23,955 nt of DNA, taken from positions 1 through 23,955 of the IMG/VR virus record IMGVR_UViG_3300025118_000147; one strand, written 5' to 3'. The DNA comes from a virus. A program made the translations under genes and the position numbers. The notes beneath the pieces are model-generated. The model saw nothing but the letters and a program-made list of their open reading frames with translations, did no database searches and had not been told where the DNA came from. Shown here piece by piece: positions 1 to 23,955 of the stretch. Numbering within the stretch: the first letter of the stretch is position 1; each line of letters begins with the position of its first letter.

Positions 1-812
1 AGCATGAAGTTCGAGCGTCCCATCGAAGCTTCACGGTCTATTAAATCTTCCTCTCCAAATCTATCAGGGTCAGTACAGGCGCCGATGTCGGCACCCATAT
101 CTATATCTTCCTGTAGTTGAGGGGCTATGAGTCCTTCATACTGGGAAAGCTTCTTGGGGTATCGGGCTGGCCAAACAAATGGTCGATAGCTCCGCTCTGC
201 CAACTTACGATAAACAGTAAAAGTAGTCTGAGGAGTCCCGAGATACATAATACGAGAATCGTTTTTCGGCGTAAGGATGGATTCAGCTTCTGTACAGAGT
301 TGAAGTAACTTCTCACGCATCAACTCCGTCATGGAGTTTCCAGGAACTTCTATATCGTCCAAAATCATTAAATCTGCTCTGCTTCCTGTTAGCTGTCCAG
401 TGATGCCCACCGACTTTACGCTTGGGGCTTGGTGAGGTGAACAGTTTACGTCGAAGCTGATGCGACTCCAGCGTGAATCGTCTGCTTTCGGTCGAAGATG
501 ATTTAGCCATGGGGTTTCAATGATTAGTTTTTGTAGGAAGATAGACATGTTATCCGCACGTTCTTTTGATGCGGATATAATCATTATTTTTTTCTCAGGA
601 TCTTTAAAGAGAGTCCAGAGGACGAAGGCTCCTGTGATCCAACTCTTTCCAACTCCACGGAAAGCTTGAATTTGAAGGCGTTTAGGTCCATTCTGAAGAT
701 AGTCTGCGATTGAGTATTGGGCACGAGTTGGGGAGGGTAAGTCAAGTTGTTCCCACAGAGCTTGTAGGAACAGCTTAAAGTCGTCTTGTAAGGCGGTTAG
801 GACGTTAGTCAT
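1..812 (-). CDS. terL: Terminase large subunit (T7 gp19-like), N-terminal 270 residues, cut by window edge
   Basis: This is the ATP-driven motor that packages DNA into the procapsid. The ATG at 810-812 opens a frame that stays open to the left edge, giving 270 codons. The sequence shows a Walker A motif (FRGVGKSWIT, residues 51-60), a Walker B motif (LMILDDIE, 148-155) and a coupling motif (LGTPQT, 191-196). This is the motif set of T7-type large terminases, which are close to 590 aa, so about half is visible. The C-terminal nuclease domain lies beyond the window. The gene is last in the late unit, as gene 19 is in T7. There is no Shine-Dalgarno before the start, only an AT-rich spacer. GC is clearly higher (about 40-55% per line) than in the gene just upstream (about 25-30%). 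The identification is firm. Confidence 0.95.
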   Translation of the reverse strand, partial: MTNVLTALQDDFKLFLQALWEQLDLPSPTRAQYSIADYLQNGPKRLQIQAFRGVGKSWITGAFVLWTLFKDPEKKIMIISASKERADNMSIFLQKLIIETPWLNHLRPKADDSRWSRISFDVNCSPHQAPSVKSVGITGQLTGSRADLMILDDIEVPGNSMTELMREKLLQLCTEAESILTPKNDSRIMYLGTPQTTFTVYRKLAERSYRPFVWPARYPKKLSQYEGLIAPQLQEDIDMGADIGACTDPDRFGEEDLIDREASMGRSNFM

Positions 813-824
813 ATAATATTGATA

Positions 825-2633
825 TTAAAATGTTTGTGGAGTAAAACCAAATATATTTTCTAATAATGTCAAATCACCTTTAACTGGTTTTAAAGCTTGT
901 GGTAATGTTAAAGCTTTATCTCTAAAACCACCTTTTACTGCAATTTCATTTACATTTGCTCTAAAGAATATTTGTTGTTCTTCTGGTAATAAATCAGTAA
1001 ACAATTTCCCAGGATTTAATTCTTCAAATAATTCTACTACTTTTTTAACTCTTCTTTGTAATACATTTCCTAAGATTTTTTCCGCAGAATTAAGAGAGTT
1101 ATATTGTAGCTTTGTAGCTTTATCTATATCCATATTTTTAACTTTACCACTTATAACAGCTTGTTGAGCTTCGTAAACTGGATTACCCGGTGTTTTCTCA
1201 GCTAATTCTGTTAAAGCATGAACATTTGAATGATCATTACTATAGATATCAAGTTTACTAGGTATTCTTATTGCTTTTCTATTATATTTATTTTTAATGC
1301 CTAATTTTTCAGATACTATTTCAAAACGGTTTTCCCACTCATCCCAATCTTTAGGTTTCCATTCTTCGATAACACCAAGCTTAGGATTTCTCCTATCAAA
1401 AGGAATATTAGGATCTCTAATTTTTATTGTTGGAAATTTATCTCCTTTCAATTGAGTCGATGTTTCAATAGAACTTTGAGGAAATACTTCTCCCTTTGTC
1501 TTAGGAAACTCTTTGCGCAGTGAGCGGAAAGCATCCATATCACCTTTAGTTGCATCTGATATATCTCCAATACCTTTTTCCATCCAACTTCCTTGGAACA
1601 TATCATCAATAGTTTGTCTATTTAATGTTCCTTCAAATTGATCAAATACCGCATCGACTTTAAAATTTCTACTTCCAGTAGTAAGTGTTTCTAAAACATC
1701 TGCAGTATTTTGGGCAAAATTACCAAGTTCAACACCCATTTTACGCAATTGCATTACAATAGGAGATTCTAATAATTGTCCTGTTTTAGCAGCGTTTTTA
1801 ATAGTTTGGAAAGAGCCATGAGCTGTAGGTATACGTTTAAATTTTTCTAAAAATCCTACATGATGAATATTTGTAATAGCTGAAGTTATTGGGCCACCCC
1901 AATTTTTAGATATATATTTACTAAATTGTTTATAGTCACCCGGACCAAAACCACTTGTTAAGAAAGCTGCAGAAGCTCTCCGCATCTCATCTCCTGTTTT
2001 AGTTACATCTGTTATAATTTTGTTCCATTTATTAATCTTTCTTAAAGGATATGATTTTTTAGCTACAGTGTAAGCTTGTTCAGATATAGTATTTTTAAGA
2101 AACATAGCTTCACCTAAATCTTGCGATAAGAAATCTGCCAAGGGTTTAGTAGGGCCAGGTTTCAACTGTTCTACTTTATAAGCAAACTGAGCACCTTTAC
2201 TAACATCAGATACTTTATCAACTACTGTAGCAACCTTTTTTGCTTTACCAAAACTTTTAGCAGCCTTCAATGCTGTAGGAGTAAAAGGAATTAAAAAATC
2301 AGCTACATCAAAATAACCTCTATAAATACCTGTAACAGCTGAGACACCTTCTATTGCTTTATCATAGACTTTTGTAACCCCAATCAAAGGATCTAATGGT
2401 CCTAAACCTAATACATTAGATTTACGAGCCTCTCTATTCATTTCAGCAAAGCCACCAATGAGTTCACCGCCAGCTCTGCCTACTTCAGATACAGTTTCTC
2501 TGAATGGTTCAGGTAAGTTTTGATAAGTATCTGATAAACGTTGTACCCCTTTTTGAAAAGTTTCTTTACCAATATCTTGTGGATACTCTTCATCTCGTTC
2601 CTTACCTGGTAATGGACCTCCGATATAACTCAT
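825..2633 (-). CDS. Hypothetical 602-aa protein between TerS-like and TerL genes
   Basis: I do not recognise this protein. The start ATG overlaps the stop of the 85-aa gene upstream (TAATG), and GGGAAGAAG just before it may act as a weak ribosome site. Residues 1-100 are polar and then glycine-rich. Residues 100-125 include a moderately hydrophobic stretch (DVADFLIPFTPTALKA). The middle is rich in Lys, Asp and Gly, and the C-terminal part (about 470-570) looks helical. There is no cysteine in the whole protein. An NIHHVGFLEKF segment near residue 255 vaguely recalls His-His motifs of HNH-like phage domains, but the rest of such a domain is not visible. The gene is notably AT-rich compared with TerL. 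Its position equals that of the Rz gene in T7, but size and content rule out a spanin. A virion or ejected protein is possible by composition, which is inference. Confidence 0.85.
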   Translation of the reverse strand: MSYIGGPLPGKERDEEYPQDIGKETFQKGVQRLSDTYQNLPEPFRETVSEVGRAGGELIGGFAEMNREARKSNVLGLGPLDPLIGVTKVYDKAIEGVSAVTGIYRGYFDVADFLIPFTPTALKAAKSFGKAKKVATVVDKVSDVSKGAQFAYKVEQLKPGPTKPLADFLSQDLGEAMFLKNTISEQAYTVAKKSYPLRKINKWNKIITDVTKTGDEMRRASAAFLTSGFGPGDYKQFSKYISKNWGGPITSAITNIHHVGFLEKFKRIPTAHGSFQTIKNAAKTGQLLESPIVMQLRKMGVELGNFAQNTADVLETLTTGSRNFKVDAVFDQFEGTLNRQTIDDMFQGSWMEKGIGDISDATKGDMDAFRSLRKEFPKTKGEVFPQSSIETSTQLKGDKFPTIKIRDPNIPFDRRNPKLGVIEEWKPKDWDEWENRFEIVSEKLGIKNKYNRKAIRIPSKLDIYSNDHSNVHALTELAEKTPGNPVYEAQQAVISGKVKNMDIDKATKLQYNSLNSAEKILGNVLQRRVKKVVELFEELNPGKLFTDLLPEEQQIFFRANVNEIAVKGGFRDKALTLPQALKPVKGDLTLLENIFGFTPQTF

Positions 2634-2890
2634 TACTTCTTCCCTTTATTCTTAGTTTCTACTGCTCTATTCTTTGATCTCTTTTCCCAGCCACCTTTTT
2701 GTCCATTTACAGACTTACCTTTTGAACTATGGCCAGCTTCAGTACCTGCAGGTTTTTTGACACCAGCTTTTTTCAAACCGTTTCGTAAGTTATCAGCATT
2801 CTTTCTGATTGTCTTAGCTTTTTTAGTTTGCATGGCAGCTTTAGCACTAGATTTCTTAGCACCATTTGCGTACCTACCTTCTTTGGCCAT
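2633..2890 (-). CDS. Small highly basic protein, 85 aa
   Basis: This is an 85-residue protein dominated by Lys, Arg, Ala, Gly and Asn, with almost no acidic residues. It could bind nucleic acid. The segment around residues 48-75 (GTEAGHSSKG, then GGWEKRSKNRA) is loosely like the His/Gly-Gly/Asn-Arg spacing in small HNH-related phage proteins. This is a weak resemblance and the catalytic set is not complete. The start is well supported: AGGAGG lies four bases upstream of the ATG, inside the last codons of the TerS-like gene, which it overlaps by 17 bases. Its stop overlaps the start of the 602-aa gene. Function is unknown; a role near DNA packaging is suggested only by position. Confidence 0.8.
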   Translation of the reverse strand: MAKEGRYANGAKKSSAKAAMQTKKAKTIRKNADNLRNGLKKAGVKKPAGTEAGHSSKGKSVNGQKGGWEKRSKNRAVETKNKGKK

Positions 2891-3116
2891 ATAGCCTCCT
2901 ATTGACTAGTTCAGGATCTACTTTGGGCATGATTCTATTTAACTTATCTAATGGATTCCCATCGTAAGCAACTCCACTTACATCATTTATTTTAAGCCAA
3001 TCGCAGGCTGCTTTTAAGTCCTGAGTAGTGGCCTCACCACTCTTAACCCGTTTAAGGAATTCAGAAGTGACGAGGTTATGTAACTCATTGAACTGTTGTT
3101 CTGTGGCTTTAGCCAT
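2874..3116 (-). CDS. Probable terminase small subunit (TerS-like), 80 aa
   Basis: This 80-residue protein is mostly helical by composition: an N-terminal helix with FNELHNLVTSEFLKRVKSG, then ATTQDLKAACDWLKINDVSG, then a charged tail. The pattern of a helix ending in a Lys/Gly turn, followed by Thr-x-x-(D/E)-Leu-Lys-Ala-Ala-x-x-x-Leu-Lys-x-Asn, is what I know from small terminase and DNA maturase A proteins of marine podoviruses. T7 gp18 has 89 residues, so the length fits. It sits downstream of the holin-like gene and upstream of TerL, as gene 18 does. The start overlaps the stop of the 58-aa gene (TAATG). The TerS assignment rests on pattern memory and context, not on a unique catalytic motif. 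Confidence 0.65.
   Translation of the reverse strand: MAKATEQQFNELHNLVTSEFLKRVKSGEATTQDLKAACDWLKINDVSGVAYDGNPLDKLNRIMPKVDPELVNRRLYGQRR
2895..2900 (-). promoter_or_regulatory. Shine-Dalgarno AGGAGG for the 85-aa gene
   Basis: On the minus strand AGGAGG is followed by CTAT and then ATG at 2888-2890. It lies in the Asn-Arg-Arg codons at the end of the TerS-like gene. It is the strongest ribosome site in a window where most starts have none, and it fixes the start of the basic protein. Confidence 0.75.
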
Positions 3117-3295: not shown

Positions 3296-3451
3296 TTAGG
3301 AGAATAGTTTTTCTTTTACAATTTTGAGTGCTTGATCGTCTAACTTATTATCAGTTCTAGCGACATAAGCTTCTAATAGGTCTACTACTAGCTTCTTCAC
3401 TGAATCTGACTTCAAGAAGGCGAATAGGATGGGCTTGATTAATAAGATCAT
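3296..3451 (-). CDS. Small hypothetical protein, 51 aa
   Basis: This 51-codon frame starts at an ATG overlapping the stop of the secreted 210-aa protein (ATGA) and ends at the TAA at 3296-3298. The sequence begins MILLIKPILFAFLKSDSVKK, a short hydrophobic or amphipathic N-terminus, followed by a helical stretch (LVVDLLEAYVARTDNKLDD). I recall similar small proteins near cyanophage holin-like genes but know no function. The overlap at one end, the four-base gap to the next ATG at the other, and the helix-forming sequence support a real gene. Confidence 0.7.
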   Translation of the reverse strand: MILLIKPILFAFLKSDSVKKLVVDLLEAYVARTDNKLDDQALKIVKEKLFS

Positions 3452-4080
3452 TTGTTTAGGGGGCATTTATTGGGTTTATGCCAAGGTTTGTACCAAGGCT
3501 TTGGTGGTTCTTTACATTCAAGAACCTTTTTTTCTGCTTTCTTATAAGCAGCTATAGGTATAACATCACTACACATATGATAAACACGAGAACCGGGAAG
3601 TAGCATAAAACCTTTTTGTTGCAGTTTAGCGCAATTATCGATTCTAACTAATTCATAGTTTAACTTCATCTTCTCATGTTGCTGCTTTGCTATAGATCTA
3701 CATCGTTCTAATCCTTTCTGATCTAGAGGAATCATAAAGTTAACTTGGAATCCCCAGTTTTCTGCTACTGTGTAGCTCTGTTGATCCATTGCATCATCAA
3801 AGGGTGTTGTATGATTCCCCATATAGAAAGGAGAGAAGGTCATGGTACTACCATTACAACTTATGTTTGGACCATAGTGTTGTCTAGATGGAGCACCATT
3901 ATTTTGGAATTGCACGGCTTGGTTGGTCACATTGCCCGTTGCAGCCGCTACTGGGTTTGAAGTGTTGTTTGTCTCACCTTCTTCAGCATATGCAGGAGTG
4001 CATCCTACTGTGAGAAGACTGATAAGGAGACTGTAGTAGAGGTAGTGTCGATTTCTCTTTCTATCTCTGTTACGGATAAT
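3448..4080 (-). CDS. Secreted cyanophage hypothetical protein, about 210 aa, no conventional start codon
   Basis: The body of this protein is clearly coding. An Arg-rich n-region is followed by a hydrophobic stretch (YLYYSLLISLLTVGC) and an Ala-x-Ala cleavage site (TPAYA, then EEGETN), the shape of a Sec signal peptide. The mature part has a conserved-looking core (NPVAAATGNVTNQAVQFQNN, then SCNGSTMTFSPFYMGN), six cysteines and a Pro/Trp/Lys-rich C-terminus. I recall related secreted proteins in marine cyanophages, function unknown. The start is a problem: in this frame there is no ATG, GTG or TTG from the ATG at 4210-4212 down to the hydrophobic core. I placed it at the ATT at 4078-4080, which gives a good n-region. 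The C-terminal coding region is secure; the start is a guess. It overlaps the upstream 123-aa gene. Confidence 0.65.
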   Translation of the reverse strand: MIRNRDRKRNRHYLYYSLLISLLTVGCTPAYAEEGETNNTSNPVAAATGNVTNQAVQFQNNGAPSRQHYGPNISCNGSTMTFSPFYMGNHTTPFDDAMDQQSYTVAENWGFQVNFMIPLDQKGLERCRSIAKQQHEKMKLNYELVRIDNCAKLQQKGFMLLPGSRVYHMCSDVIPIAAYKKAEKKVLECKEPPKPWYKPWHKPNKCPLNK

Positions 4081-4376
4081 ACTTGGCTGGCTGCTCTTGT
4101 CACTACTTCTAATGAGAAGGGATCGCCAACTGTATGTATCGTGAAGACGGAATCTGAGTCTAGTATTCCTCCAGAACTTGTTGAAGTATGAGTGATATTG
4201 ATTCCATCCCATGAATTTAAAGCTGATCCATAAGTTGTGGTGGTTATCTCCTCCACGATCTCTTGAGTCGTTGTTGTTGTTGAGTTCATGGACCCCTGAG
4301 TGAATTGTGGGGTCACGAGCTCTGCTCTTGCTACCGTGGGTGATGCCAGTAGGAAGAGTAAAATCCATTTTTTCAT
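4005..4376 (-). CDS. Secreted Thr-rich cyanophage hypothetical protein, 123 aa
   Basis: The protein has a clear signal peptide (MKKWILLFLLASPTVARA, cut before ELVTP). The mature part is rich in Thr and Ser and probably forms beta strands, ending in SLSVFSQ. I recall close relatives with the same QFTQGSMNSTTTTTQ-type start and LSVFSQ end in marine cyanophages; the function is unknown to me. I chose the ATG at 4374-4376, which overlaps the stop of the holin-like gene (ATGA) and has GGAAGA close upstream. A TTG nine codons earlier is possible but would put residues before the signal sequence. It may be exported to the periplasm or outer membrane late in infection, which is inference. Confidence 0.8.
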   Translation of the reverse strand: MKKWILLFLLASPTVARAELVTPQFTQGSMNSTTTTTQEIVEEITTTTYGSALNSWDGINITHTSTSSGGILDSDSVFTIHTVGDPFSLEVVTRAASQVLSVTEIEREIDTTSTTVSLSVFSQ

Positions 4377-4687
4377 TCTTCCTTTTTCTTTAACATAGGA
4401 CAATTAACAGGTGCTGCTTTACCTTTAGAGTTAGCTGTGTTCAAGCCAAAACTGGCCAGTGCTCCTGTAAATATACTAGCAACGAACGTGATATCAGAAC
4501 TACCAGATTTCTTAATAATATTCCCAGGTAGCTCAACGTAATTGAGGGTTATTATAAAACCAGCCCAAACAACAACGCCAAGTCTGACGAATGTAGAAAG
4601 GAGGGCTATTTGTTCTTCTTCAAATTCTCCTCTTGTTCCTTTGATTCGGTCAATAAGTCCTTTTTTTTCTTCCGGTTTTCCTTCCAT
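4373..4687 (-). CDS. Holin-like small membrane protein, 104 aa
   Basis: Holins form inner-membrane lesions that time lysis. This protein has a charged N-terminus (residues 1-27), a first membrane segment at about 29-51 (LLSTFVRLGVVVWAGFIITL), a short loop with KKSGSSD, a second hydrophobic segment at about 66-84 (ITFVASIFTGALASFGL) and a Lys/Glu-rich tail. Two membrane spans, a charged tail and a location between the fibres and TerS match T7 gene 17.5 in position. I recall homologues in marine cyanophages that are often left unnamed. The start ATG lies 82 bases inside the previous gene, an unusually long overlap for this window. The membrane topology is well supported; the holin role is inferred from size and context. 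Confidence 0.75.
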   Translation of the reverse strand: MEGKPEEKKGLIDRIKGTRGEFEEEQIALLSTFVRLGVVVWAGFIITLNYVELPGNIIKKSGSSDITFVASIFTGALASFGLNTANSKGKAAPVNCPMLKKKEE

Positions 4688-5028: not shown

Positions 5029-5318
5029 TAGCTCTTAGGATATTTATCCTTTGTTTTTTTGATAGTAGCTTTCCATGCATCTATACCATTATGATAAATA
5101 TCATCTAGCTGCTCTACCAACCTAGGGTATTCGGCTGCTCTATCTCTTTGATACTTTTTATCCGCATATTCTGTTTCTAATTTAGTCTTTTCAGCAGCAA
5201 TCTCTGAATCAGTTGGTTTGGTTTGGGTTTTATCATGCCAATCCAAGACATCGTCATTAAGTGCAAATTGTGCTTTTGGACGTAAAGAAATAATAGCGTC
5301 AAAATTAGTTATGCTCAT
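5028..5318 (-). CDS. Small protein resembling tail-fibre assembly (XkdW-like) proteins, 96 aa
   Basis: The protein begins MSITNFDAIISLRPKAQFAL and contains a short DVLDWHDKTQTKPTDSEI linker, a charged helix with YQRDRAAEYPRL, and a C-terminal QLDDIYHNGIDAWKATIKK. I know this combination, including the Asp-x-Ile-Tyr-His-x-Gly-x-x-x-Trp segment, from small proteins that follow tail-fibre genes in marine phages and are annotated as XkdW-like or fibre assembly proteins. It lies directly after a fibre gene, with the start overlapping that gene's stop (ATGA). The likely job is helping fold or trimerise the fibre. Family resemblance is good; the chaperone role is inferred. Confidence 0.75.
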   Translation of the reverse strand: MSITNFDAIISLRPKAQFALNDDVLDWHDKTQTKPTDSEIAAEKTKLETEYADKKYQRDRAAEYPRLVEQLDDIYHNGIDAWKATIKKTKDKYPKS

Positions 5319-6130
5319 GCTGCTACCTCTATTACTGTTAATGATGAAGAAGTACCACTATTACCGTTTATCATCAATTGACTACCTCTACCTAATTTAT
5401 AATATATTTTATAAGTTCTTTCGCTTGTACTGCCAGCACCCTCTGTCCATACATTAGTATAGCTGGCATCAAGTTCTGTGTTTGATACACTTCCTCCACT
5501 TGCTTGGCTTGCGACAGTTCCTTCCCATAACCTACTAGAATTATCATTACTAGTTAAAGCTACATAAGTAATAGGATCATCAGTGCCTTTTGCTCTAACA
5601 TGTCCTAAAGCAGTAACAATAAATAAAGTACTATCTGATGCTGTAGGTGTAAATGTTCTATCTAGTGGGGACCAATTAGTAAAACTTGAATCAGTTGCAG
5701 TTAAGCTTGCTGTTGATTGAACGGTTTGAACCTGAAGGATCTTACCACCAGCTGCTGCAGCTTCCCAACCGGCATCACCATTGGAATCCATAGTAAGAAC
5801 ATAGTTATCACTACCAGCTGCTAATGCTGAAGGATTACCAGAGGAGTCTCCTACTATAAGTTTACCTCTAGCAAGAGCATCCATCTTAGCAAGAGTAACA
5901 GCATCATCTGCAATTTCATCAGTATCTACAGCATTATTTGCTAGGTGTTCATTGTCTATACTTGCAGCTGCATAATGCTCACTATCTATAGCATCATCAG
6001 CAATATGTGCATTATCTATAGATCCATCATTATAATGTTCTGAATCTATAGAGTTATCTGCCAATTTTGTTTCATCAATTAGATCAGCTGTTAAGGCATC
6101 AGCTTTAATTTTTGTTAGTGCATTTGCCAT
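5315..6130 (-). CDS. Short tail-fibre-like repeat protein, 271 aa
   Basis: Residues 15-82 are a run of about ten-residue repeats of the type (A/G)-x-I-D-(S/N)-x-H-(Y/I/L), followed by ALARGKLIVGDSSGNPSAL and VLTMDSNGDAGWEAA, a linker I associate with marine phage fibres. The C-terminal half (about 130-271) is a Ser/Thr-rich beta domain with no membrane segment or enzymatic motif; it probably trimerises and binds a surface. The start overlaps the stop of the 47-aa gene (TAATG). It probably attaches at or near the tail as an accessory fibre. Which receptor it binds cannot be seen. Confidence 0.8.
   Translation of the reverse strand: MANALTKIKADALTADLIDETKLADNSIDSEHYNDGSIDNAHIADDAIDSEHYAAASIDNEHLANNAVDTDEIADDAVTLAKMDALARGKLIVGDSSGNPSALAAGSDNYVLTMDSNGDAGWEAAAAGGKILQVQTVQSTASLTATDSSFTNWSPLDRTFTPTASDSTLFIVTALGHVRAKGTDDPITYVALTSNDNSSRLWEGTVASQASGGSVSNTELDASYTNVWTEGAGSTSERTYKIYYKLGRGSQLMINGNSGTSSSLTVIEVAA
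5884..6088 (-). repeat. Protein-level tandem repeats in the 271-aa fibre gene
   Basis: Residues 15-82 repeat a roughly ten-residue unit, for example NSIDSEHY, GSIDNAHI, DAIDSEHY, ASIDNEHL and NAVDTDEI. The DNA units have diverged from each other, so selection on the protein pattern is likelier than a recent duplication. Such repeats probably form a trimeric shaft. Confidence 0.75.
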
Positions 6131-8595: not shown

Positions 8596-11100
8596 TCACG
8601 CCATCGCTAAACTAGCTACCGCATGTATATTACCAGCGGCTACGACTAAATAATCTATTCTATCTACAGCATTAGCTGCAGTTGATAGAGTAGGAGCTGT
8701 ACCTCCAGCCCATTTGAAAGCTGAGTTCCATGCAGCAGTTCTCGAACCAGAGGCATCCTGTGTAATTATGATTGAACCTGATTGCCCAACTACTTCATTA
8801 CTTGGATCTTGAAAAGTTGTATTCTCAGCTAAAGCTATAGAATGATGACAAGCAGCACCCATATCTAAAGTAATACTATTTGATGAAGAAACACTTGCTA
8901 ATATTTCTACTTGGACACTATCATTAATAACTAAAGGTCCAGTAATTGTACCTCCAGCTAATGGAAGTTTTGTAGCATCATCTACAACAAAATCTAAGGT
9001 TCCATCACTATCTTCATATGTTACTGTAATACCTGTTTCAGTATTACCAGTCACCATACCACCTACAAAGTCTTCTACTTGCTCTTCTGTTAGTTGGGTA
9101 TTAGTATTAGTTGTATAACTAGGTACTACCCATTCCATACCATTACTGGTATACTTAAGGAATTTATCTGTTCCACTAGGGGCTGCATGTATATCTAACT
9201 TAACTTCAGCTATTGAATCATCTGCTAACTTACTACCTGCAATATCTGCAGAAGCATTTATATCAGCATTTAATATAGCTCCATCTACAATCTTAGCAGA
9301 TGTAACTGTATTATCTCCCGGTGTAGGGATAGTAACAGCTGATCCACATTGCATAACAAATACATCAGCACCACTAGGAGGTCCAGCACAGAATGTAATT
9401 TCATCTGATGCTGATAATACGAAACCATCTAAACCAGAAGGATTAGTTCCAGCATTTGGTTTCTGTATAACACCATTTACACTAATTATAAGTTGTGCTG
9501 CAGTAGTTACAGCTGCCGCACTACCACCAGTTGTACCTTCTTTTAAATCATATGCAACAACAGTACTATTATAAGTAGGAGCATCGGTTGTATTCTGATT
9601 TGTTAATACAAGTATCTTAAAGTCACCTGTTGATGTTACTTCTCCCCATGAGGAACCGTCATAGACGTTCATCTTATCGGTTGAAGTATTAAAGTATAAG
9701 TCACCAGCATCATTATCAGATCCCGGTTCTGAACTTGCTATACGATATCTATTACCAAAGTCATCTATATCAGAACTTAGGTTTATTAAGTCAGCTTCTT
9801 TAAGTGTTGCTTTATGATAATTATAAATATGCCCAGAACCCGTAGATTCTACCATAAAGGCAACTCCAGCAGCAACAGTTGTGCTGTAGAATTGAGAATT
9901 TATACCATTGATTGTTACTGTAGAAGCACCAACAGTTCTACCTGTAGTACTAACACCAGATCCATTCACTACAAGACCACCAGCATCAGCTATACTAACT
10001 ATAATACCGCTAGCTGGTTGAGAGTTAGGGAATGCTGCATCAGTAGCAATAGTTTCAAAGCCACCTACTGTAGCAAGTTGAGTACTAACATAGTCTACAA
10101 CAGCTCCTGATGTAGGAACATGAGAGTCACTATCAGAGATAGTTGTCTGCTCACAACCTATCATACCAATCTCAACTGCATTAGATGCAATCGTTACCGC
10201 ACCATCATTAGCTAAAGTTACATCACCTGATATAGCCACAGCTGTAGGAACAGTAGAACCACTACCTACAATTACTTGGCCATCAGGTACTGCTGCAAGT
10301 TTAGTATGAGCAATAGCTGCAGCAGCATTTAGGTCATCATTTACAATAGCTCCGTTGGCTATTTTTGCTGAGTTAACTGCACCAGTTGCAATAGTTAATG
10401 ATGTAGCTCCAGTTACATCTCCAGTATGAGTTGCATTAGTTACTTTAGATGTGTTAGCAGATATAGCAGAAACAATAGAATTAGCTAATTTATCATTATC
10501 AACTGCATCATCTGCTATCATACCAGTTGCTACAGTTCCTGTATCTCCAGTCGTTACTACCGTACCTGTTACATTAGGTAAGGTAATAGTACGATCAGCT
10601 GTAGGGTCAACTACTGTAAGAGTAGTCTCATACCCATCATCTGTTGCACCTTCAAATATAATTGTCGTGTCTTCACCCATTGTCAGGTGACCCGTCATGG
10701 TATCACCAGTCGTTGACAGCTTATTTTCATCATACTCCATAGCCTTCCGTAGAAGCTGAGTCTGATTATTATTAAGATCACTTGCTGTTATACTAGAACC
10801 TGCAGAATAGATAGCTTGTGCTGTAGGAGCACCTAAATCTGTATTAGGTCTTATTATGATTGTACCGCTAGATAAAGTAGCTCCACCAATATGTATGGTT
10901 TTAGCTGATGTATCTACGGTATATTCACGTGGGGAGGCGGATTCATTTATGGTAGAAGCTGTAAATGTTAGATCAACTGCATCTAACGTTACTACTACTT
11001 CACTACCTTTGAATACATCAAAATTACTGGAGTAACTATATGTATTTGCTACACCGCCATGAATTGCGGAGTATGATTTTGTTACGCTTGCATGTGCCAT
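8596..11100 (-). CDS. Tail fibre protein (T7 gp17-like N-terminus), 834 aa
   Basis: The fibre recognises the host surface. Residues 1-125 match the T7 fibre N-terminal domain that joins the fibre to the tail: an early FDVFKGSEVVVTLD segment, then INESASPREYTVD, then ITASDLNNNQTQLLRKAMEY. After it comes a shaft with repeats (IADDAVDNDKLAN, NGAIVNDDLNAA, GAILNADINASADIAGSKL), a GDLYFNTSTDKMNVYDGSSW segment and LTEEQVEDFVGGMV. The last about 90 residues form a beta-rich tip (SIIITQDASGSRTAAW). T7 gp17 has 553 residues, so this one is longer, mostly in the shaft. It lies directly downstream of the gp16-like gene, as in T7. The N-terminal assignment is firm; the receptor is unknown. Confidence 0.9.
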   Translation of the reverse strand: MAHASVTKSYSAIHGGVANTYSYSSNFDVFKGSEVVVTLDAVDLTFTASTINESASPREYTVDTSAKTIHIGGATLSSGTIIIRPNTDLGAPTAQAIYSAGSSITASDLNNNQTQLLRKAMEYDENKLSTTGDTMTGHLTMGEDTTIIFEGATDDGYETTLTVVDPTADRTITLPNVTGTVVTTGDTGTVATGMIADDAVDNDKLANSIVSAISANTSKVTNATHTGDVTGATSLTIATGAVNSAKIANGAIVNDDLNAAAAIAHTKLAAVPDGQVIVGSGSTVPTAVAISGDVTLANDGAVTIASNAVEIGMIGCEQTTISDSDSHVPTSGAVVDYVSTQLATVGGFETIATDAAFPNSQPASGIIVSIADAGGLVVNGSGVSTTGRTVGASTVTINGINSQFYSTTVAAGVAFMVESTGSGHIYNYHKATLKEADLINLSSDIDDFGNRYRIASSEPGSDNDAGDLYFNTSTDKMNVYDGSSWGEVTSTGDFKILVLTNQNTTDAPTYNSTVVAYDLKEGTTGGSAAAVTTAAQLIISVNGVIQKPNAGTNPSGLDGFVLSASDEITFCAGPPSGADVFVMQCGSAVTIPTPGDNTVTSAKIVDGAILNADINASADIAGSKLADDSIAEVKLDIHAAPSGTDKFLKYTSNGMEWVVPSYTTNTNTQLTEEQVEDFVGGMVTGNTETGITVTYEDSDGTLDFVVDDATKLPLAGGTITGPLVINDSVQVEILASVSSSNSITLDMGAACHHSIALAENTTFQDPSNEVVGQSGSIIITQDASGSRTAAWNSAFKWAGGTAPTLSTAANAVDRIDYLVVAAGNIHAVASLAMA

Positions 11101-11104
11101 TTAG

Positions 11105-14100
11105 TTATTTGTTTAGTTGAAGTATCCGATTAATTTTATCTAAATCCTGATTCCGACCAGCATTCTTTTTCTGTAATTTTTCTCTTTCTCGGTTCCTAAT
11201 TTCATTGGAATTTGAAATACGATTAATAATTCTAGATTTTGCTGTTCTTAATGCTATATTAAGTCTACTTCTAATTCTAGAAAATTCAGGTACATCTTCA
11301 GAACTATAACCTTTGGATCTTATATAACGTAGAACATTTTCAAATCCTTTAATAGTTTTACCATTAGGATCGTCAAATTCTACTCTATCAGCACTTCTCA
11401 TAATTTTTTGTAATTCACTATGGAAGTAACCATCTTGACCCATAAGAGTTCCAAGTTCTTCTTTTTCAGTTGTAGTATAGGGTACTCCACCGGGGGATAC
11501 ATTGAAATGAGGTAAGACACTATATTCAATATCCATCAAGAATTGACCTTCTTTAGTTGGAGCTTCGTATGATTTAAATGGAGAATAAGTATTCTTCACT
11601 CTACTCCAGAAACTACCACCTTGTTTGTTTACTGGTTTGCCTGTTACAAAATCTACTACATTAGGTAATGCACCGTCATGGTCAAATATATCTAACCAAT
11701 TATTTCTATTCCTTATCATATCAGCTAGATCACCTTTCTCTACTTCTCTTAATTCACCATACATAACCTTACCAATTTCATTTCTAAAACCAGCTAATGG
11801 ATACATAGCGTTAGTTAAAGGCCCAGCCCATCTTGCAGCGGCATTACCGTTACCTGCTAAGACGCCAAATAGAGGCTCAATATCACCTAATAGAGATCTA
11901 TCAGTAATACTTGCACCTATTATAAAGCCCATTTTCTTACCAAATTTTTCAAGAGTAGTAGTAGATACTGAATCAAAGTTATCCATAACATTTACCGTCA
12001 TAGCAACCCAATCAGCCATTGGACCTAAGAATTCATAACTATGCCATTTACCATCTAGACCTTGATATGTACGTTTAGCATACCCTTGGTTATCTCGAAC
12101 TTTTTGTACTTGTCTATCCCAATGACCATCTCCTCTAATACGATCTTGACTGAATAACATCCAAGCTCCCATAACTGCTAAATTACCAGTAGCAACACGT
12201 CCTCTGATTTTATTTCTAAGATGATTAAACTTAGCCATATAATCACCAGACATATCTATACCACGTTTAGCAAGTATACTTTGTATTTCGTTAGGTGTGA
12301 AGTTTGATAATGTTTTGTTCCCCATTGGTCCAAATAATTCTGCATATTCTCCAGCAAAATTCGCTCCTATTGATTTACCTTCTAAACCAACTCTTGGAGA
12401 ATATTTACCAAACATAGTCAAGGCATTCATCTGGGTATTTGGGAACCAGAATATTGATCTTGCTATTGGAAATCTTCTAAGTAATGGATTTAAACGTTTA
12501 GTTAATGGTGTATCTAAGTTAAGTGCAATCTCTCGTCTTGAGTATTCTACAGCTGATTGACTTATATTCCCATCCTCATCCCATCCTTTCTTCCAAAAAT
12601 CTTTATATGCTTCATCCCATTGTTTCTTGCTCCAATTACCATCAGGAAATTTTTCACTTAAAAAGTCAAAGACCATTCCTCGATCTTGTGCTACTTTTTG
12701 TGTAGCTTCAGTGAAACCGTCTAAGGCTGTCATAGCATTAGGACCAAATCTAAGTACAGGATCGCCTCCTAGGGCTTCTAATTCCTTATATACACTAAGC
12801 ATACTTTGAGGTCCAAACTCACCTTTAGAAGCGGCTGCATTAGCTATTTCTTCAGCAAGTTCTAATCCTTTTAACTTTTCTATACGAAGATCTTCTCTAA
12901 ATAGTGTTGCTATTTCTTCTGGATTAGTAGAAGCTTTTCTAAAAGCTCTACCCATATACCCAAAACCTTTTTGGAAGGTATCAGTAAATCCAAAATACAT
13001 ATGGGATGCTCTACGTAATTGATGTAAATCACCACTTCTTAAAGCACCATAAAACACATGAGCAGGTTCAGCTATAAAACCACCAAAGTTACCAGTCATA
13101 GCTTTAATAGGAGTACCAATAGCAGACAACATAGAGTTGAATATATTGGTCATCATAGCTTTATTAACTAAAGAAGGTATCTCTGGAGCTCCATCTACAA
13201 TAATTTTATTAAGACTACCAAAAGTATTCTCAATATATTTGTTTAAACCTTTAATAGATTGTACATCACCCTCTGAGAATTCATATGCTAACCTAATAGC
13301 TCTAGCAAATTCAGGATTATTCTCTTGTATATCCGCCAACATTGCTCTGAATCGTTTAGCTTTAGGTATGATATCACTTAATTTATCATCGAAATTATCT
13401 TTTAAGTTCTTTAATTGTTTATTAACATTCTTAGGATTACCTTCTAATGCTGCAATTAAAGATTCTCTACCCTTCCAGTTGAAATCAACAATACCTGTTT
13501 CTATTTCAAAGAGTTCTAATCGATCTAAGATCAATTCATTGGCTCTACCTATAGCAGTAGTGCCATCCATATATCTAGCACCTTCAGCTATATTAGCTAT
13601 TTGTCCTGCTTCTGAAGTAATAAAATAAGCACTAGCTTTATGGTTAGTAAGATCAGCAAAATCATCTAATAATTTAATAGAAGATTTTGACATTGCATTA
13701 TATGCAACAGCATTAGCTTTTTTAAATCCGTTTACTGTAGTCTTAAAGTTATTTAAAATTTTAACCAGCTCACCTCTAGGTAAGGTAGGATCAGAAATAA
13801 TCTCTGCTAAAATAGTACCTTCTTGATTTATCTGTTTCCAAGATAACTTTTTACCATTAGCTAATTCAACCTTATAAGGACCAACTGCAAGTTGTTTTCT
13901 TAAAGTATTAATAAGAGTTCGTTTCTGAATCTCTTCAGGTTCTCTAGCAAGTTTACGGAAAGCCTCAGTAATAGTAGTACCTAAACTACCTTGAGAAGAT
14001 CCTATATTCTGGGCTATTTCAGTTTGTCGTTTAGCTACACCTAGTATACCATCTGTATCTTTAACAATCTGTCCAGTACGTAATTCATCATTAATTTTAT

Positions 14101-15265
14101 GAATTCCTACTGTAGGTGTGTCAGGTATATCTCCACTTTTCTTTGCATAATCACCTATCTCATTTAAGTCTCTAACATACTTATCATCAGATCTTCTTAG
14201 AGCTTCTTCGACAGGATTATCAGTATTATATACTTTAGAATCTAATGGATCGATAGTAGCTTTATCTAATGCCTTCTGATCTGTACTTCCTTCAGCTAAG
14301 TATTTAGTTACATTTTTAGTGCTTCTACCAGCTCTAGTTAGTTTAATCACACCTTCTGCAAGAGAAGCAAAGAAACTTAATCTTACTCCTTCTAATACAT
14401 TTAGCTTAGTTTTTTCATTTGCACTTTTCCCATCTGAATCCCATGATTCTGGTATTAATCCCCATCCCCACCATTTTTCTTTTCTCCAAACAGTAGCTAA
14501 GGTATCATCTTGTGCATTAATTTTATTTATAAAATCTGTAAAACCACCTACACCTAAGTCTAAACCACCTTTTGCAAAGCGAGAAAAGACAGGGTTGTTT
14601 CCTAAACGTACTAACCAAGGTGCTGCTACACCTGATTTATGTATATTTCCAAAGGCAGCCATTGACTTACCTTTTGTAAAATAAAAAGGTATTACAAGAG
14701 AAGATAAATCTCTAAATGCTTGAGCACCTTGATCTTCAAACTTAGGTACTTTAGGTATTTTAGCTTTACCTCTTGTGATAAATGAACTGAAATCAGAGAT
14801 CCAATCCATAGTACCTACTGCAGGAGACATCATTGCTTCTTGGTTAAAAAGAAGACTCCTTGATTTTAATAATTCTGCAATGCTTTTATGCTTGTCTGGG
14901 TTCTTATATATGTCATAATCTTTATAATTCATGCCATAATTTTCCATTGCCCAAGCATCCTTTGCAGGATCATCATCAGCAAGATTTTTTATTTCATTAT
15001 ACCCTGCCCAATATGCCTTACGTTTTTCACGTGTGGACATATCAGGTTGAGTAGTTGGAGATTGAGGTGAAGCCTCTACTACTGGTTCAGGTGTTACTGG
15101 TTCAGGTGTTACTGTTTCTGGTTCATCTGAATCAAATTCTTCTAAAATTGATTGATCTATATCATCAGATTCCGTAGAATCAAGAAGTTTGTTTTCTAAT
15201 CCAGAAGTTGGAATTTCCAGCCCTGATGAGTTCAGAGCTATTTCATCCCCGTAAGGATTTGCCAT
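11105..15265 (-). CDS. Internal virion protein, T7 gp16-like, 1386 aa
   Basis: In T7, gp16 sits in the inner core of the head and is ejected first to help form the channel for DNA across the cell envelope. This protein has the right length (T7 gp16 is 1318 aa) and lies between gp15- and gp17-like genes. It starts with an acidic, Pro-rich segment (residues 40-75, with VTPEP repeats), then a long helical body with a few hydrophobic stretches (for example TGNLAVMGAWMLF), and a basic coiled-coil-like C-terminus. The N-terminal lytic transglycosylase domain of T7 gp16 is not recognisable. I read no cysteine in all 1386 residues. The assignment rests on order, size and composition. An AT-rich spacer of 27 bases without a Shine-Dalgarno precedes the ATG. 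Confidence 0.85.
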   Translation of the reverse strand: MANPYGDEIALNSSGLEIPTSGLENKLLDSTESDDIDQSILEEFDSDEPETVTPEPVTPEPVVEASPQSPTTQPDMSTREKRKAYWAGYNEIKNLADDDPAKDAWAMENYGMNYKDYDIYKNPDKHKSIAELLKSRSLLFNQEAMMSPAVGTMDWISDFSSFITRGKAKIPKVPKFEDQGAQAFRDLSSLVIPFYFTKGKSMAAFGNIHKSGVAAPWLVRLGNNPVFSRFAKGGLDLGVGGFTDFINKINAQDDTLATVWRKEKWWGWGLIPESWDSDGKSANEKTKLNVLEGVRLSFFASLAEGVIKLTRAGRSTKNVTKYLAEGSTDQKALDKATIDPLDSKVYNTDNPVEEALRRSDDKYVRDLNEIGDYAKKSGDIPDTPTVGIHKINDELRTGQIVKDTDGILGVAKRQTEIAQNIGSSQGSLGTTITEAFRKLAREPEEIQKRTLINTLRKQLAVGPYKVELANGKKLSWKQINQEGTILAEIISDPTLPRGELVKILNNFKTTVNGFKKANAVAYNAMSKSSIKLLDDFADLTNHKASAYFITSEAGQIANIAEGARYMDGTTAIGRANELILDRLELFEIETGIVDFNWKGRESLIAALEGNPKNVNKQLKNLKDNFDDKLSDIIPKAKRFRAMLADIQENNPEFARAIRLAYEFSEGDVQSIKGLNKYIENTFGSLNKIIVDGAPEIPSLVNKAMMTNIFNSMLSAIGTPIKAMTGNFGGFIAEPAHVFYGALRSGDLHQLRRASHMYFGFTDTFQKGFGYMGRAFRKASTNPEEIATLFREDLRIEKLKGLELAEEIANAAASKGEFGPQSMLSVYKELEALGGDPVLRFGPNAMTALDGFTEATQKVAQDRGMVFDFLSEKFPDGNWSKKQWDEAYKDFWKKGWDEDGNISQSAVEYSRREIALNLDTPLTKRLNPLLRRFPIARSIFWFPNTQMNALTMFGKYSPRVGLEGKSIGANFAGEYAELFGPMGNKTLSNFTPNEIQSILAKRGIDMSGDYMAKFNHLRNKIRGRVATGNLAVMGAWMLFSQDRIRGDGHWDRQVQKVRDNQGYAKRTYQGLDGKWHSYEFLGPMADWVAMTVNVMDNFDSVSTTTLEKFGKKMGFIIGASITDRSLLGDIEPLFGVLAGNGNAAARWAGPLTNAMYPLAGFRNEIGKVMYGELREVEKGDLADMIRNRNNWLDIFDHDGALPNVVDFVTGKPVNKQGGSFWSRVKNTYSPFKSYEAPTKEGQFLMDIEYSVLPHFNVSPGGVPYTTTEKEELGTLMGQDGYFHSELQKIMRSADRVEFDDPNGKTIKGFENVLRYIRSKGYSSEDVPEFSRIRSRLNIALRTAKSRIINRISNSNEIRNREREKLQKKNAGRNQDLDKINRILQLNK
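15081..15110 (-). repeat. Two perfect 15-base tandem repeats in the gp16-like gene
   Basis: On the plus strand the unit ACTGGTTCAGGTGTT occurs twice in a row. It encodes Val-Thr-Pro-Glu-Pro type units near residues 52-61, and a third imperfect copy (EPETV) adjoins. Slippage within a flexible Pro/Glu linker is the likely origin; copy number may vary between related phages. Confidence 0.85.
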
Positions 15266-15292: not shown

Positions 15293-17980
15293 TTATGCTC
15301 TATCTATTATATTTTGCAGACGGGGATCTGGTTTTTCATTTAACTTATCCCATTTTTGGCGGATCCTTTCTTTCCTTGCTGCGTCTAAGTCTGCTAGGCC
15401 ATCAACATAAGGATACCAATCTAGGTTTCCGTCAGCACCATACTTTGCCCTATTAAAATCTGGATCGTCAAGTAAACTAGGTACAAAATTTGGATCTTGA
15501 AGAGCCATATAATAACTCTCAACTAATTGATTTATACCAGCAGTTTTGAAATCTGACAGAGATTCAATACCAAATTGAGATATCCAGAATGCAAAAGCGT
15601 CGTTGAGATTTTCTTTTGCTCCAAAGGCTTCTGCTGCATCAGCAAACTCCTCTGCAACTAGATCTGCAGCTCCAGTAGCTGAACCACTTGCCTTTTGAAT
15701 TTCTGCTGTACATAAATTTCGATCATAAAGACCGTCATCATTACCACATATCTGATTCAATAAACCTTGTGATAGATTTTTAGATATATGACCACCTAAT
15801 GCTTCTTCGTCTTCTTTAGCTAATGGAGATAATCCCCAAGCTTTTCGTCTAGAATTGATAACTTGACTTAGAGGTAATTTACTAGATTTCTGAGCTGTCA
15901 CTAAATATTCTAAAGGTTTATTTATATCCATATTCTCTAGAATTTCTTTAGTTTCAGGTTGATCGGGTGTTACGTTTAATTGAATTGCTGGAACTGTTTC
16001 GTTATTTGAATTAATTTTTGTTGCTGATAAAGCATCTCTTCTACTACCTTTACCTGATTTTATAAATCTATCAAGTTTATTCCTCATTGCAGCATTGAAA
16101 TCTATTTTATCTACAGGAGGAACTTGTAAAGCATCTGTTAACGATTTATTAATAAGCTTGCCAGTTGTACCATTTAATGAATACATATTACTTGCTCCTT
16201 GACCAAGAGCATCTACTGCCTTTTTGGAGTTTTTAAAAGCTTCATCTCCACCATTTAATAAGTAATGATCTCTAGTTGCAGACATAGCTTCTGCTGCTGA
16301 CAATCCTTTCTCTCTCATCTGTTCATTAAAATAATCTTTTAAAGATTGTTGGATAATCATTACATGTCCGGGATCTACATCCTCGCCATATGATGTGCCA
16401 AATTGTCCTTTTATTACTGCTTTAGGAAGGTTTTCAACAGCCTTTAGCATATCTTTATAATTGTCATCTTTATCTAATTTTGCTTCTCTAGCTAGTTGCT
16501 CTTTAATCCATGTACGCCTAAGAGCCGCAGGAGATATTTCTGCTGCTCTATCAGATAGCCTACCTCCAGTCTTTGGATCAGCAAGCCAAGCTTTCCAATT
16601 TTCAATTTCTACATCTACTAGTGCAGGAGGTGTTTCGTGTATATCTAGGGCTTCATTTATTTTTTCATAATTTGCCCATTCTGCATACCCAAACTTCTTT
16701 TGTAAGATTTTAACTTTTTCTAATACTTGTTTTCTAGTTAAATCGTAATCTCCATCACCATCTTTATCTTCAAGAATTTCTTCATATAGTGCTTCCGATT
16801 CGTATGGAAACTCTCTTTCTAACTCACTCGTTGCAATATCACTTAACCTCCCTTCAGCATCATCAGCATATTTAAGCATTGAACCTAGTACGCCTTTCTC
16901 AGGATCATAACCATACTTTGTAGGCCATCTAGATCCATATGTTTCAGCATAACCTACTATTTTCCCATTCTCTTTAATTGGAACTAATGTACCTGCTGCA
17001 TTTTGGGTTTTCTGTCTTGTACCGGGTATTTCTTGATTTGAAATATCTACTATATTATTAAACTTTAGATGTCCTGAATCAAGTCCTGCCTTGAGAAACG
17101 TTTCCTGCAATTCCGTAATTTGTTTATAACTTCTCTTAGCACTTTTATCTGTTACACCAATCGTGATAGCATTTACGACCTTTTGAAAGTTCTCTCCAGT
17201 AGGATTTGCGATGTAAGCTTGTTGCGTTATTGCTTCTCGTTCCCTTGATTGTTGTATTGCTGCTTGAACTCTATACTTCGAGAATAAACCTCCCTCACCA
17301 GATTCTGCTTCATCTAGTGCTGCAAAGAATCCAGACCCACCTTGATCTGTTGGTAAGGCTAAATAACCATTACCATAATCATTATTTATATTATTATCTT
17401 CTAAGAATTTCCTAGATAAATAATGATGAGCTAGCATTTTATCTTCTACAGTTGTTGCTGTATTAAGAATAAATGGAGTTCCATTTTCTCTAAATAGTTC
17501 TGTCTCATCAGTTAACATACCATGCTCTATGGTAGGTGCAAACTTATTAGCTATTCTAGTAGTCTCAAGTTGGGCTATAGTATCTAAATAAGCTGGATGT
17601 CTTTTAGCTCCTTTATCTATAAGATCTTGTGGGACTCCTTCCTCTTGAGCTGTCTTTAAATTTTGATGATATATACCAGAAGAAATATTAGATGCTTTTA
17701 GTACAGCTTCAGTTTTCTTTGCATCATCTGAACCAAGATATCCTTGATATTTATTTCTATACCAATCATACATAGCCTCAGATGTATTCTTCTTGATCCT
17801 ATGCTGTTCAAGTTTCATCAAACCTTTCATTGCAAGATCAGATCCAAGGTTAGCAAACGTAGCTAGTTTCTTTTCCTGCCTTTGCTCCATATCAGCAATG
17901 TCATTGTTAATATTCTTTCGTTGTGCAGAAAATCTCCAATTAGCATTCCTTGCTTCATTAGTGTGTAGTTGTGTTACCAT
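15293..17980 (-). CDS. Internal virion protein, T7 gp15-like, 895 aa
   Basis: In T7, gp15 is a core protein that is ejected and lines the periplasmic part of the DNA channel. Here the gene occupies the same place between gp14- and gp16-like genes; T7 gp15 is 747 aa. The N-terminus (residues 1-75) is a charged helical stretch. The rest is mostly helical, polar and without membrane spans. Residues 405-414 (DKDGDGDYDL) form an Asp-x-Asp-x-Asp-Gly loop like those that bind calcium, though the twelfth loop position is not Glu. There are only two cysteines (CGNDDGLYDRNLC, near residues 743-755). The ATG lies two bases after the gp14-like stop. The family call rests on order, size and composition. 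Confidence 0.83.
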   Translation of the reverse strand: MVTQLHTNEARNANWRFSAQRKNINNDIADMEQRQEKKLATFANLGSDLAMKGLMKLEQHRIKKNTSEAMYDWYRNKYQGYLGSDDAKKTEAVLKASNISSGIYHQNLKTAQEEGVPQDLIDKGAKRHPAYLDTIAQLETTRIANKFAPTIEHGMLTDETELFRENGTPFILNTATTVEDKMLAHHYLSRKFLEDNNINNDYGNGYLALPTDQGGSGFFAALDEAESGEGGLFSKYRVQAAIQQSREREAITQQAYIANPTGENFQKVVNAITIGVTDKSAKRSYKQITELQETFLKAGLDSGHLKFNNIVDISNQEIPGTRQKTQNAAGTLVPIKENGKIVGYAETYGSRWPTKYGYDPEKGVLGSMLKYADDAEGRLSDIATSELEREFPYESEALYEEILEDKDGDGDYDLTRKQVLEKVKILQKKFGYAEWANYEKINEALDIHETPPALVDVEIENWKAWLADPKTGGRLSDRAAEISPAALRRTWIKEQLAREAKLDKDDNYKDMLKAVENLPKAVIKGQFGTSYGEDVDPGHVMIIQQSLKDYFNEQMREKGLSAAEAMSATRDHYLLNGGDEAFKNSKKAVDALGQGASNMYSLNGTTGKLINKSLTDALQVPPVDKIDFNAAMRNKLDRFIKSGKGSRRDALSATKINSNNETVPAIQLNVTPDQPETKEILENMDINKPLEYLVTAQKSSKLPLSQVINSRRKAWGLSPLAKEDEEALGGHISKNLSQGLLNQICGNDDGLYDRNLCTAEIQKASGSATGAADLVAEEFADAAEAFGAKENLNDAFAFWISQFGIESLSDFKTAGINQLVESYYMALQDPNFVPSLLDDPDFNRAKYGADGNLDWYPYVDGLADLDAARKERIRQKWDKLNEKPDPRLQNIIDRA

Positions 17981-23883: not shown

Positions 23884-23955
23884 TTAAGAAACGGTACCTA
23901 TAGTGCCAGGGCTAAGATGTTGCCTACCGTACTCCAAAGGAGTTGGAGGATCTTT
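23884..23955 (-). CDS. C-terminal end of an upstream gene, probably major capsid protein (partial)
   Basis: One minus-strand frame from the right edge encodes a 23-residue tail ending LSPGTIGTVS before TAA at 23884-23886. The Pro/Gly-rich sequence looks protein-like and the stop lies 13 bases before the next ATG, the usual spacing here. In T7-like genomes the gene before tail tubular protein A is the major capsid protein, so that is the best guess. Another frame also stays open for 18 codons, so the frame choice is not proven. Confidence 0.4.
   Translation of the reverse strand, partial: KDPPTPLEYGRQHLSPGTIGTVS

Follow-up and report, generated by a model that had tools for sequence, protein, structure and literature searches.

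The virus record IMGVR_UViG_3300025118_000147 of IMG/VR was analyzed from position 1 to position 23,955, and this whole stretch of 23,955 nucleotides is referred to here as the window. On its minus strand, positions 825..2633 hold an intact open reading frame (ORF) that starts with ATG and encodes a protein of 602 amino acids (aa) between the genes for the small (TerS) and large (TerL) terminase subunits. A first-pass annotation, made from the sequence, had described the same ORF between a TerS-like gene and TerL, a description that stands; an 85-aa gene, missing from the title of that annotation, lies there as well. The reading favored below, with modest confidence, is that the 602-aa protein is the current occupant of a hypervariable cargo slot between the terminase genes, whose products would be capsid-internal, ejected and often nuclease-like.

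Gene content and composition of the locus

The 602-aa protein has no cysteine, a mass of 67.2 kDa and an isoelectric point (pI) of 9.18, and it lacks a transmembrane-like segment. Upstream of its gene are the 85-aa basic gene and the 80-aa TerS gene; downstream is TerL, which is cut by the window edge. The 85-aa gene shares 17 bp with TerS and 1 bp with the 602-aa gene, and 12 bp separate the 602-aa gene from the start of TerL. Because of these overlaps and the short gap, the four genes look like a single operon. In T7, as the first-pass annotation had pointed out, only the Rz-like 18.5/18.7 lies between the terminase genes. Since the N-terminus of TerL is 91.5% identical to that of Prochlorococcus phage NATL1A-7, the surroundings are of the cyanopodovirus type. 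On the coding strand, the gene order is tail tube A, tail tube B, a small internal-virion-type protein (phrog_308), gp14 type, gp15 type, gp16 type (phrog_6651), fiber genes, small genes, TerS, the 85-aa protein, the 602-aa protein and TerL, the gp14 and gp15 types being assigned by position and size. The features discussed here are the following:

825..2633, minus strand: 602-aa slot protein, cysteine-free, pI 9.18; the same region is near-identical in contig L001
2073..2549, minus strand: residues 29-187, N-terminal module in common with the L005 slot protein (phmmer E 1e-39; tblastn 46% identity over residues 9-182)
1860..1865, minus strand: His257-His258, where an HNH-like motif may begin (motif evidence only; no significant profile score)
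1707..1736, minus strand: residues 300-309, GVELGNFAQN, set against the family core G-x-x-x-G-N/D-x-x-x-N (pattern search)
2633..2890, minus strand: 85-aa Lys-rich protein, pI 10.9, of a family that adjoins TerS in most loci
2874..3116, minus strand: terminase small subunit, 80 aa, left slot border (PF11123, E 2.4e-15; phrog_891, E 1.3e-20)
3..812, minus strand: terminase large subunit, N-terminal 270 aa, right slot border (phrog_38, E 5.1e-64)
11105..15265, minus strand: gp16-type internal virion protein, 1386 aa, no cysteine, for comparison (phrog_6651)
15293..17980, minus strand: gp15-type protein, 895 aa, two cysteines, for comparison (position and size; no PHROG match)

The first-pass annotation had described the 602-aa gene as AT-rich and inserted at this place. 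The contrast with TerL is real (32.8% against 45.8%, with 36.7% for the window), although the gene had been placed too low, at about 25-30%, and the small upstream genes too high, at about 40-45% instead of the measured 34.7-41.1%. The contrast had, moreover, been misread, as TerL and TerS are the high ones: GC content at third codon positions (GC3) is 0.43 in TerL (3-812) and 0.37 in TerS (2874-3116), and 0.14-0.19 in the other larger genes of the window. The GC3 of the 602-aa gene (0.143) falls in the range of the tail, core and fiber genes of the window (0.143-0.192) and is matched by tail tube B (0.144) and one fiber gene (0.143). Across loci, the largest slot gene is below TerL in GC content in 66 of 74 cases. 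A foreign AT-rich insertion was thus rejected, given that the gene has the GC3 of the phage's own virion genes.

No match to the 602-aa protein was found in Pfam, PHROGs, NCBIfam, PADLOC or the PDB sequences (best E 0.053 in PHROGs and 0.96 in the PDB), in agreement with the earlier view that it belongs to no known packaging, lysis or fiber family. Likewise, tblastn detected no match to it in 50,697 phage records, and no further relatives of the L005, L069 and L011 slot proteins in phage records. Scans of IMG/VR with the whole protein, its N-terminal alignment and its C-terminal part returned only L001, a contig that is 99.96% identical to the window over 5,400 bp (2 mismatches), and L005, whose slot protein is the single distinct relative; the similarity covers about residues 29-187, after which the two proteins diverge. 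The AlphaFold2 model of the 602-aa protein with this one partial relative had a mean predicted local distance difference test (pLDDT) score of 32 and was set aside. As it is the sole basis for a helical make-up, that part of the earlier description is given no weight.

Replacement of slot content at conserved borders

Loci for comparison were fetched from IMG/VR by TerL (the best 80 of 597), and 18 stretches around TerL from public phage records were added. After exclusion of 20 loci of this first set in which TerS was undetected or not annotated, the collection comprised 78 complete TerS-TerL slots, including that of L001. For P60, in which TerS was undetected, ORFs were taken from the entire stretch before TerL. 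A protein of at least 140 aa is present in 75 of the 78 complete slots, so that the description of the 602-aa protein as "extra" does not hold. The exceptions are L042, with an 86-aa ORF only, L045, with a 109-aa HNH gene only, and L078, with an 80-aa ORF and a 111-aa HNH gene; with no large protein in these three, some lineages seem able to do without the cargo.

The occupants of these slots differ strongly from one another, and many remained singletons upon clustering. Among 63 loci there are 862 pairs in which the TerL N-termini are at least 90% identical; any slot homology (E 1e-3) was detected in 55 of these pairs, and in 23 the homology spans 70% or more of the shorter protein with an identity of at least 40%. 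When TerL is at least 95% identical, 32 of 145 pairs show any slot homology and 22 show it over most of the length. For instance, TerL of the window and that of L003 are 96.7% identical, yet homology between their slot proteins is undetectable, and nucleotide similarity between the two loci is lost close to where TerS ends and returns at TerL. Slot content is thus replaced or reshuffled at conserved borders, even where the TerL N-termini are 95-97% identical, and the variability of the slot across cyanopodoviruses, raised as a question in the first-pass annotation, is evident from these counts.

Reshuffling is visible in the homologous pairs themselves, 79 of 112 of which share only partial homology, as in a mosaic build. 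In L081, for example, an N-terminal half resembling P-SSP2/P-SSP3 is combined with a C-terminal half resembling P-SSP7 gp50. Some occupants have recognizable matches. Among 97 scanned slot proteins, one matches photosystem II D1 (by sequence a full-length psbA-like ORF, L074:5363-6439, 358 aa) and one a sulfotransferase, and the lysozyme-type phrog_90 is matched by the ORFs L027:6339-7004 and L054:2353-2928 (E 1.4e-32 and 2e-21). Residues 396-494 of phrog_38472 (annotated as endolysin, 1175 residues) are matched by C-terminal segments of P-SSP7 gp50 and L081; the matching segments are in L084:4279-5985 (residues 444-542) and L081:1982-3373.

Small Lys-rich proteins are also encoded between the terminase genes. 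The 85-aa family next to TerS had 62 members in a first clustering and 69 in a later count, and its product is a possible partner for the slot protein. In L083 (5789-6004), L012 (3085-3297) and L014 (4381-4575), the slot protein is separated from TerL by a Lys-rich protein of 64-71 aa, and in L049 (4615-5865) the same small family is fused to the C-terminal part of the slot protein.

Cysteine exclusion and an HNH-like motif

Large slot proteins are almost entirely devoid of cysteine. Of those with at least 190 aa, 101 of 106 have none, and the six cysteines in a total of 37,408 aa are confined to Syn5 gp53 and gp54, a pair of P60 ORFs and the psbA ORF. Base composition does not account for this, since cysteine codons are rare in frame only: TGT and TGC together occur 0.16 times per 1000 codons in the reading frame of slot genes, compared with 15 and 58 in the other frames. 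TerL has nine cysteines in NATL1A-7 and nine in P-SSP7, and the number per 1000 aa is 52 in the 109-aa HNH family, 3.4 in the 85-aa family and 4.5-5.4 in slot ORFs of fewer than 190 aa.

A second sample was drawn with other TerL queries after the cysteine hypothesis had been fixed. Once the repeats L132, L148 and L182 had been removed, it offered 75 complete slots among 108 new loci. With the NATL1A-7 query, all 61 slot ORFs of at least 190 aa were cysteine-free, compared with 7 of 156 other ORFs; the non-redundant count, the only one from which the repeated S-CBP1 was taken out, gave 45 of 45, with no cysteine in 17,532 aa. With the Syn5 query, 15 of 16 slot ORFs (10 of 11 non-redundant) were cysteine-free, compared with 3 of 54 others. 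The control ORFs in both comparisons may include overlapping ORFs.

The same property is found in large podoviral ejection proteins. There is no cysteine in T7 gp15 and gp16 (2,065 aa), in P22 gp7, gp20 and gp16 (1,309 aa) or in N4 vRNAP (3,500 aa), and there are only two in 8,880 aa of the gp15 and gp16 types of P-SSP7, Syn5, NATL1A-7 and the window. Which proteins of T7, P22 and N4 are ejected was in part presumed, N4 gp51 and T7 gp7.3 being marked as uncertain. P-SSP7 has 16 ORFs of 250 aa or more and NATL1A-7 has 17; in each phage, four of them lack cysteine, and these encode the scaffold, gp15, gp16 and the slot protein (PSSP7_050 and CYIG_00053, respectively). This signature backs the resemblance to ejected core proteins that the first-pass annotation saw in the cysteine-free 602-aa protein. 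Cysteine exclusion is taken as strong indirect evidence that slot products would lie inside the procapsid and exit through the tail, and we infer that tail passage is the reason why large ejected proteins lack cysteine. The scaffolds of P-SSP7, Syn5, NATL1A-7, T7 and P22 (L101-L105) are cysteine-free as well, like large ejected proteins; for this reason, the lack of cysteine may mark proteins that exit the procapsid interior by any route.

A sizeable minority of slot proteins also carry an HNH-like motif. HH is present in 33 of 90 non-redundant slot proteins, compared with a mean of 7.8 and a maximum of 15 in 200 shuffles and with 8 of 60 controls. HH followed by HxxxH, with 20-220 residues allowed between them by the regular expression, is found in 16 of 90, including that of the window, compared with a shuffle mean of 0.3, a maximum of 2 and 2 of 60 controls. 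This 60-protein control is non-redundant, whereas a 205-protein set used for the motif pattern, hydrophobic and cysteine counts is redundant and includes many TerL proteins. In the 15 proteins other than that of the window, HH and HxxxH are 49-64 residues apart, and their alignment displays HH, a stretch of variable length, G-hydrophobic-x-x-G-N/D-x-x-x-N and LPxxVHxxLH.

An iterated profile of this family gathers 30 slot proteins, some without the full motif (members include themselves, and L034 and L035 are near-duplicates). When proteins were left out in turn, 15 of 19 listed scored 12.9-60.9 bits, with reversed sequences at 6.4 or less; the low scorers were L003 (10.0 bits), L072 (9.8), L056 (8.3) and L083 (4.3). 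The profile also matches 12 of 56 new non-redundant slot proteins at E < 0.01. In addition, EndoVII PHROGs are matched by 7 of 97 slot proteins, including that of S-RIP2 (E 3.4e-5), and S-RIP2-type slot proteins match HNH/EndoVII PHROGs. The AlphaFold2 model of the L049 domain (24 sequences, mean pLDDT 75.5, predicted template modeling score 0.56) places HH at the end of a strand, followed by two helices, a second strand downstream of the conserved N and a helix that carries HxxxH, which we take to be the order of elements in beta-beta-alpha-metal nucleases. A fold search with this model listed no nuclease (best Foldseek E 0.97; one VIA-align chain, Z 2.3), a result that excludes nothing. Comparison by hhalign of the HH family with the S-RIP2-type alignment, the 109-aa HNH alignment and the S-RIP2 and P-SSP2 proteins gave nothing significant. 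Profile matches in the PDB to designed repeat proteins (whole-sequence E to 8.8e-08, with no single stretch passing) and, weakly, to a deacetylase were judged spurious.

The protein of the window keeps HH257, the G...GN and N309 and has no HxxxH at the family spacing; an HxxxH at 468-472 was rejected as the partner of HH257 because its spacing of 211 is outside the 49-64 of the others. HH together with a core of the GVELGNFAQN type, a pattern devised with the family and the window segment already in view, occurs in 2 of 100,000 shuffles of the window protein, in none of 205 controls or 298 reversed sequences and in 18 of 298 slot ORFs. Residues 293-316 are aligned with the HH family by hhalign, not significantly, and the curated HNH models of Pfam, PHROG and NCBIfam gave no match. 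Its relative in L005 scores 12.9 bits when left out and reaches E 0.005 in a stricter profile, where one reversed sequence reaches 0.03. Hydrophobic segments (KD19 of at least 1.2) are in no clear excess, being found in 33 of 106 slot proteins and 53 of 205 controls, and the window protein has none. Because its HNH-like core is incomplete, catalysis by the 602-aa protein itself is a guess, and it is possible, though doubtful, that it is an active nuclease.

Possible roles of the slot products

On balance, the 602-aa protein is probably a virion cargo. A slot product would be made late, together with the packaging proteins, enter the procapsid, stay with the DNA and leave through the narrow tail at infection; such an exit would explain the ban on cysteine. 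With less support, it would act as an effector once in the cell, and in many lineages as a nuclease, either aiding host takeover or attacking competing genetic elements. For HNH-like members, the most economical role would be that of a nuclease with host or competing DNA or RNA as its target, while lysozyme-like members would act on the wall. Slot swapping is proposed to result from conflict with host defenses or rival phages. That the Syn5 slot encodes annotated structural proteins is counted in favor of virion cargo. More tentatively still, virions could inject a polymorphic-toxin-like nuclease effector, drawn from a very large exchangeable TerS-TerL pool, against the host or rivals, with cysteine exclusion as a general mark, readable from sequence only, of large tail-passing proteins. 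Of the first-pass interpretation, the absence of a known family, the variable slot and the likeness to ejected proteins survive, while the foreign low-GC insertion and the "extra" gene do not.

Several observations weigh against this reading. Some cysteine-free proteins are not known to be ejected, such as the scaffolds, N4 gp56 and gp57 and the 271-aa fiber gene product of the window. Conversely, the smaller ejected T7 proteins gp14 and gp6.7 each contain a single cysteine, as do the gp14-type proteins of cyanophages, the gp15 type of the window has two, and Syn5 gp53 and gp54 also contain cysteine. Slot proteins are basic (median pI 9.6), whereas gp15 and gp16 types are acidic to neutral (5.1-7.0), and BLASTP revealed no homology between the 602-aa protein and the gp16 and gp15 types of the window (best E 0.27 and 1.4). 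As for the motif, HxxxH alone is, per residue, no commoner in slot proteins than in controls, neither a PDB profile search nor a fold search nor hhalign confirmed the identification of the HH family as HNH, and the window protein scores a non-significant 3.5-4.8 bits against the HH profile.

The alternative that survives best, albeit as an unlikely one, is a packaging accessory: the slot protein would be, or replace, a terminase-associated HNH nuclease that acts in the cytoplasm on replicated or packaged phage DNA. The slot gene adjoins TerL, with operon overlap, and a stand-alone HNH gene of about 109 aa is present in 55 of 78 complete loci and absent from 23, including the window type. HH-bearing slot proteins are commoner where this gene is absent (14 of 23 compared with 17 of 55, Fisher p 0.02), with 6 of 23 compared with 7 of 55 for HH plus HxxxH (p 0.19); strict complementarity between the two was rejected, being only weak. 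Moreover, the HNH gene and a large slot protein occur together in many loci, and three loci lack a large protein. A motor partner would be expected to vary little at a TerL identity of 95-97%, yet the slot is swapped, and TerL and HNH have many cysteines while slot proteins have none.

Decoration of the capsid exterior or a vertex is improbable. Syn5 gp53, gp54 and gp58, annotated as structural, sit between TerS/HNH and TerL, and gp53 and gp54 presumably form the horn. Nevertheless, the 602-aa protein is unlike gp53 and gp54 (best BLASTP E 2.4 for one and 0.67 for the other), which are acidic (pI 4.2 and 5.1) and contain cysteine. According to PMC10575957, Syn5 has knob and horn proteins, while the shell of P-SSP7, whose slot holds a 568-aa protein, is described with the major protein only. 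A selfish homing endonuclease at a favored site between the terminase genes would account for HNH-like motifs and EndoVII/HNH PHROG matches at a hypervariable site, but it is the least credible alternative, as 75 of 78 complete slots are occupied, close relatives mostly carry unrelated occupants instead of near-identical ones, the GC3 of the slot gene equals that of phage virion genes, and homing offers no reason for cysteine exclusion.

Several known systems come close to the cargo reading. Podoviral ejection proteins (T7 gp14-gp15-gp16, P22 gp7-gp20-gp16, N4 vRNAP) resemble slot proteins in that their large members are cysteine-free. In contrast to them, slot genes lie next to the terminase genes and are exchanged between close relatives, their products are basic, and no homology was found. 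Polymorphic-toxin HNH/EndoVII and colicin-type HNH proteins resemble slot proteins in the order HH...N...HxxxH and in variable joined modules; the HH family, however, has no significant Pfam, NCBIfam, PDB-sequence or fold match, and no immunity gene was identified. T4-type internal proteins and other injected effectors would embody the same idea of exchangeable, strain-specific cargo in a different phage type. T4-type internal proteins have a common N-terminal capsid targeting sequence, and no common N-terminal leader was seen when the termini of slot proteins were compared by eye. Syn5 gp53, gp54 and gp58 occupy the same slot, from TerS and HNH to TerL, as the window protein, to which gp53 and gp54 have no homology. 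With no homology to gp15/gp16 types or Syn5 gp53/gp54 detected and an incomplete HNH-like core, the 602-aa protein is not filed under the gp14-gp16, HNH or Syn5 structural families. Ejection proteins have been described as mosaic in the review PMC8954989. The genomic island of HTVC010P-type pelagiphages is bordered by tail fiber genes, not terminase genes, and its authors report variation in sequence more than in gene content.

Elsewhere in the window, the minus strand at 3448-4403 holds overlapping ORFs of 306 aa and 132 aa in different frames, with the signal-like stretches LLTVGC and MKKWILLFLLASPTVARA; their products may be exported or lipoproteins, the starts being uncertain. Both the 271-aa (5315-6130) and the 834-aa (8596-11100) fiber-type proteins match phrog_13518.

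A TerS-TerL cargo slot with cysteine-free, partly HNH-like products was not found in the available text of the literature searched, which did not extend to key papers on the Syn5 and P-SSP7 virions, so this is no proof of novelty. The word cysteine is likewise absent from the main text, as available, of the ejection-protein review PMC8954989 and the ejectosome paper PMC11440229. The cysteine signature, common to T7, P22, N4 and cyanophages, could serve to pick out candidate injected proteins elsewhere among podoviruses. Ejection of the slot products, for its part, is open to direct testing in P-SSP7 and NATL1A-7, which are in culture, and engineering of T7-like cyanophages has been reported (PMC8776855).

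Beyond the first-pass view of a single unassigned protein, the occupant of the slot is swapped or reshuffled, often with an HNH-like motif. In PMC3861242 and PMC3909814, terminase genes are among the under-recruiting, microdiverse regions of marine phage metagenomes, for a reason called obscure. For cyanopodoviruses, a swapped cargo slot between TerS and TerL may partly explain this under-recruitment of terminase genes. If the slot products are ejected, these abundant viruses would bring a diverse arsenal to bear as soon as they infect.

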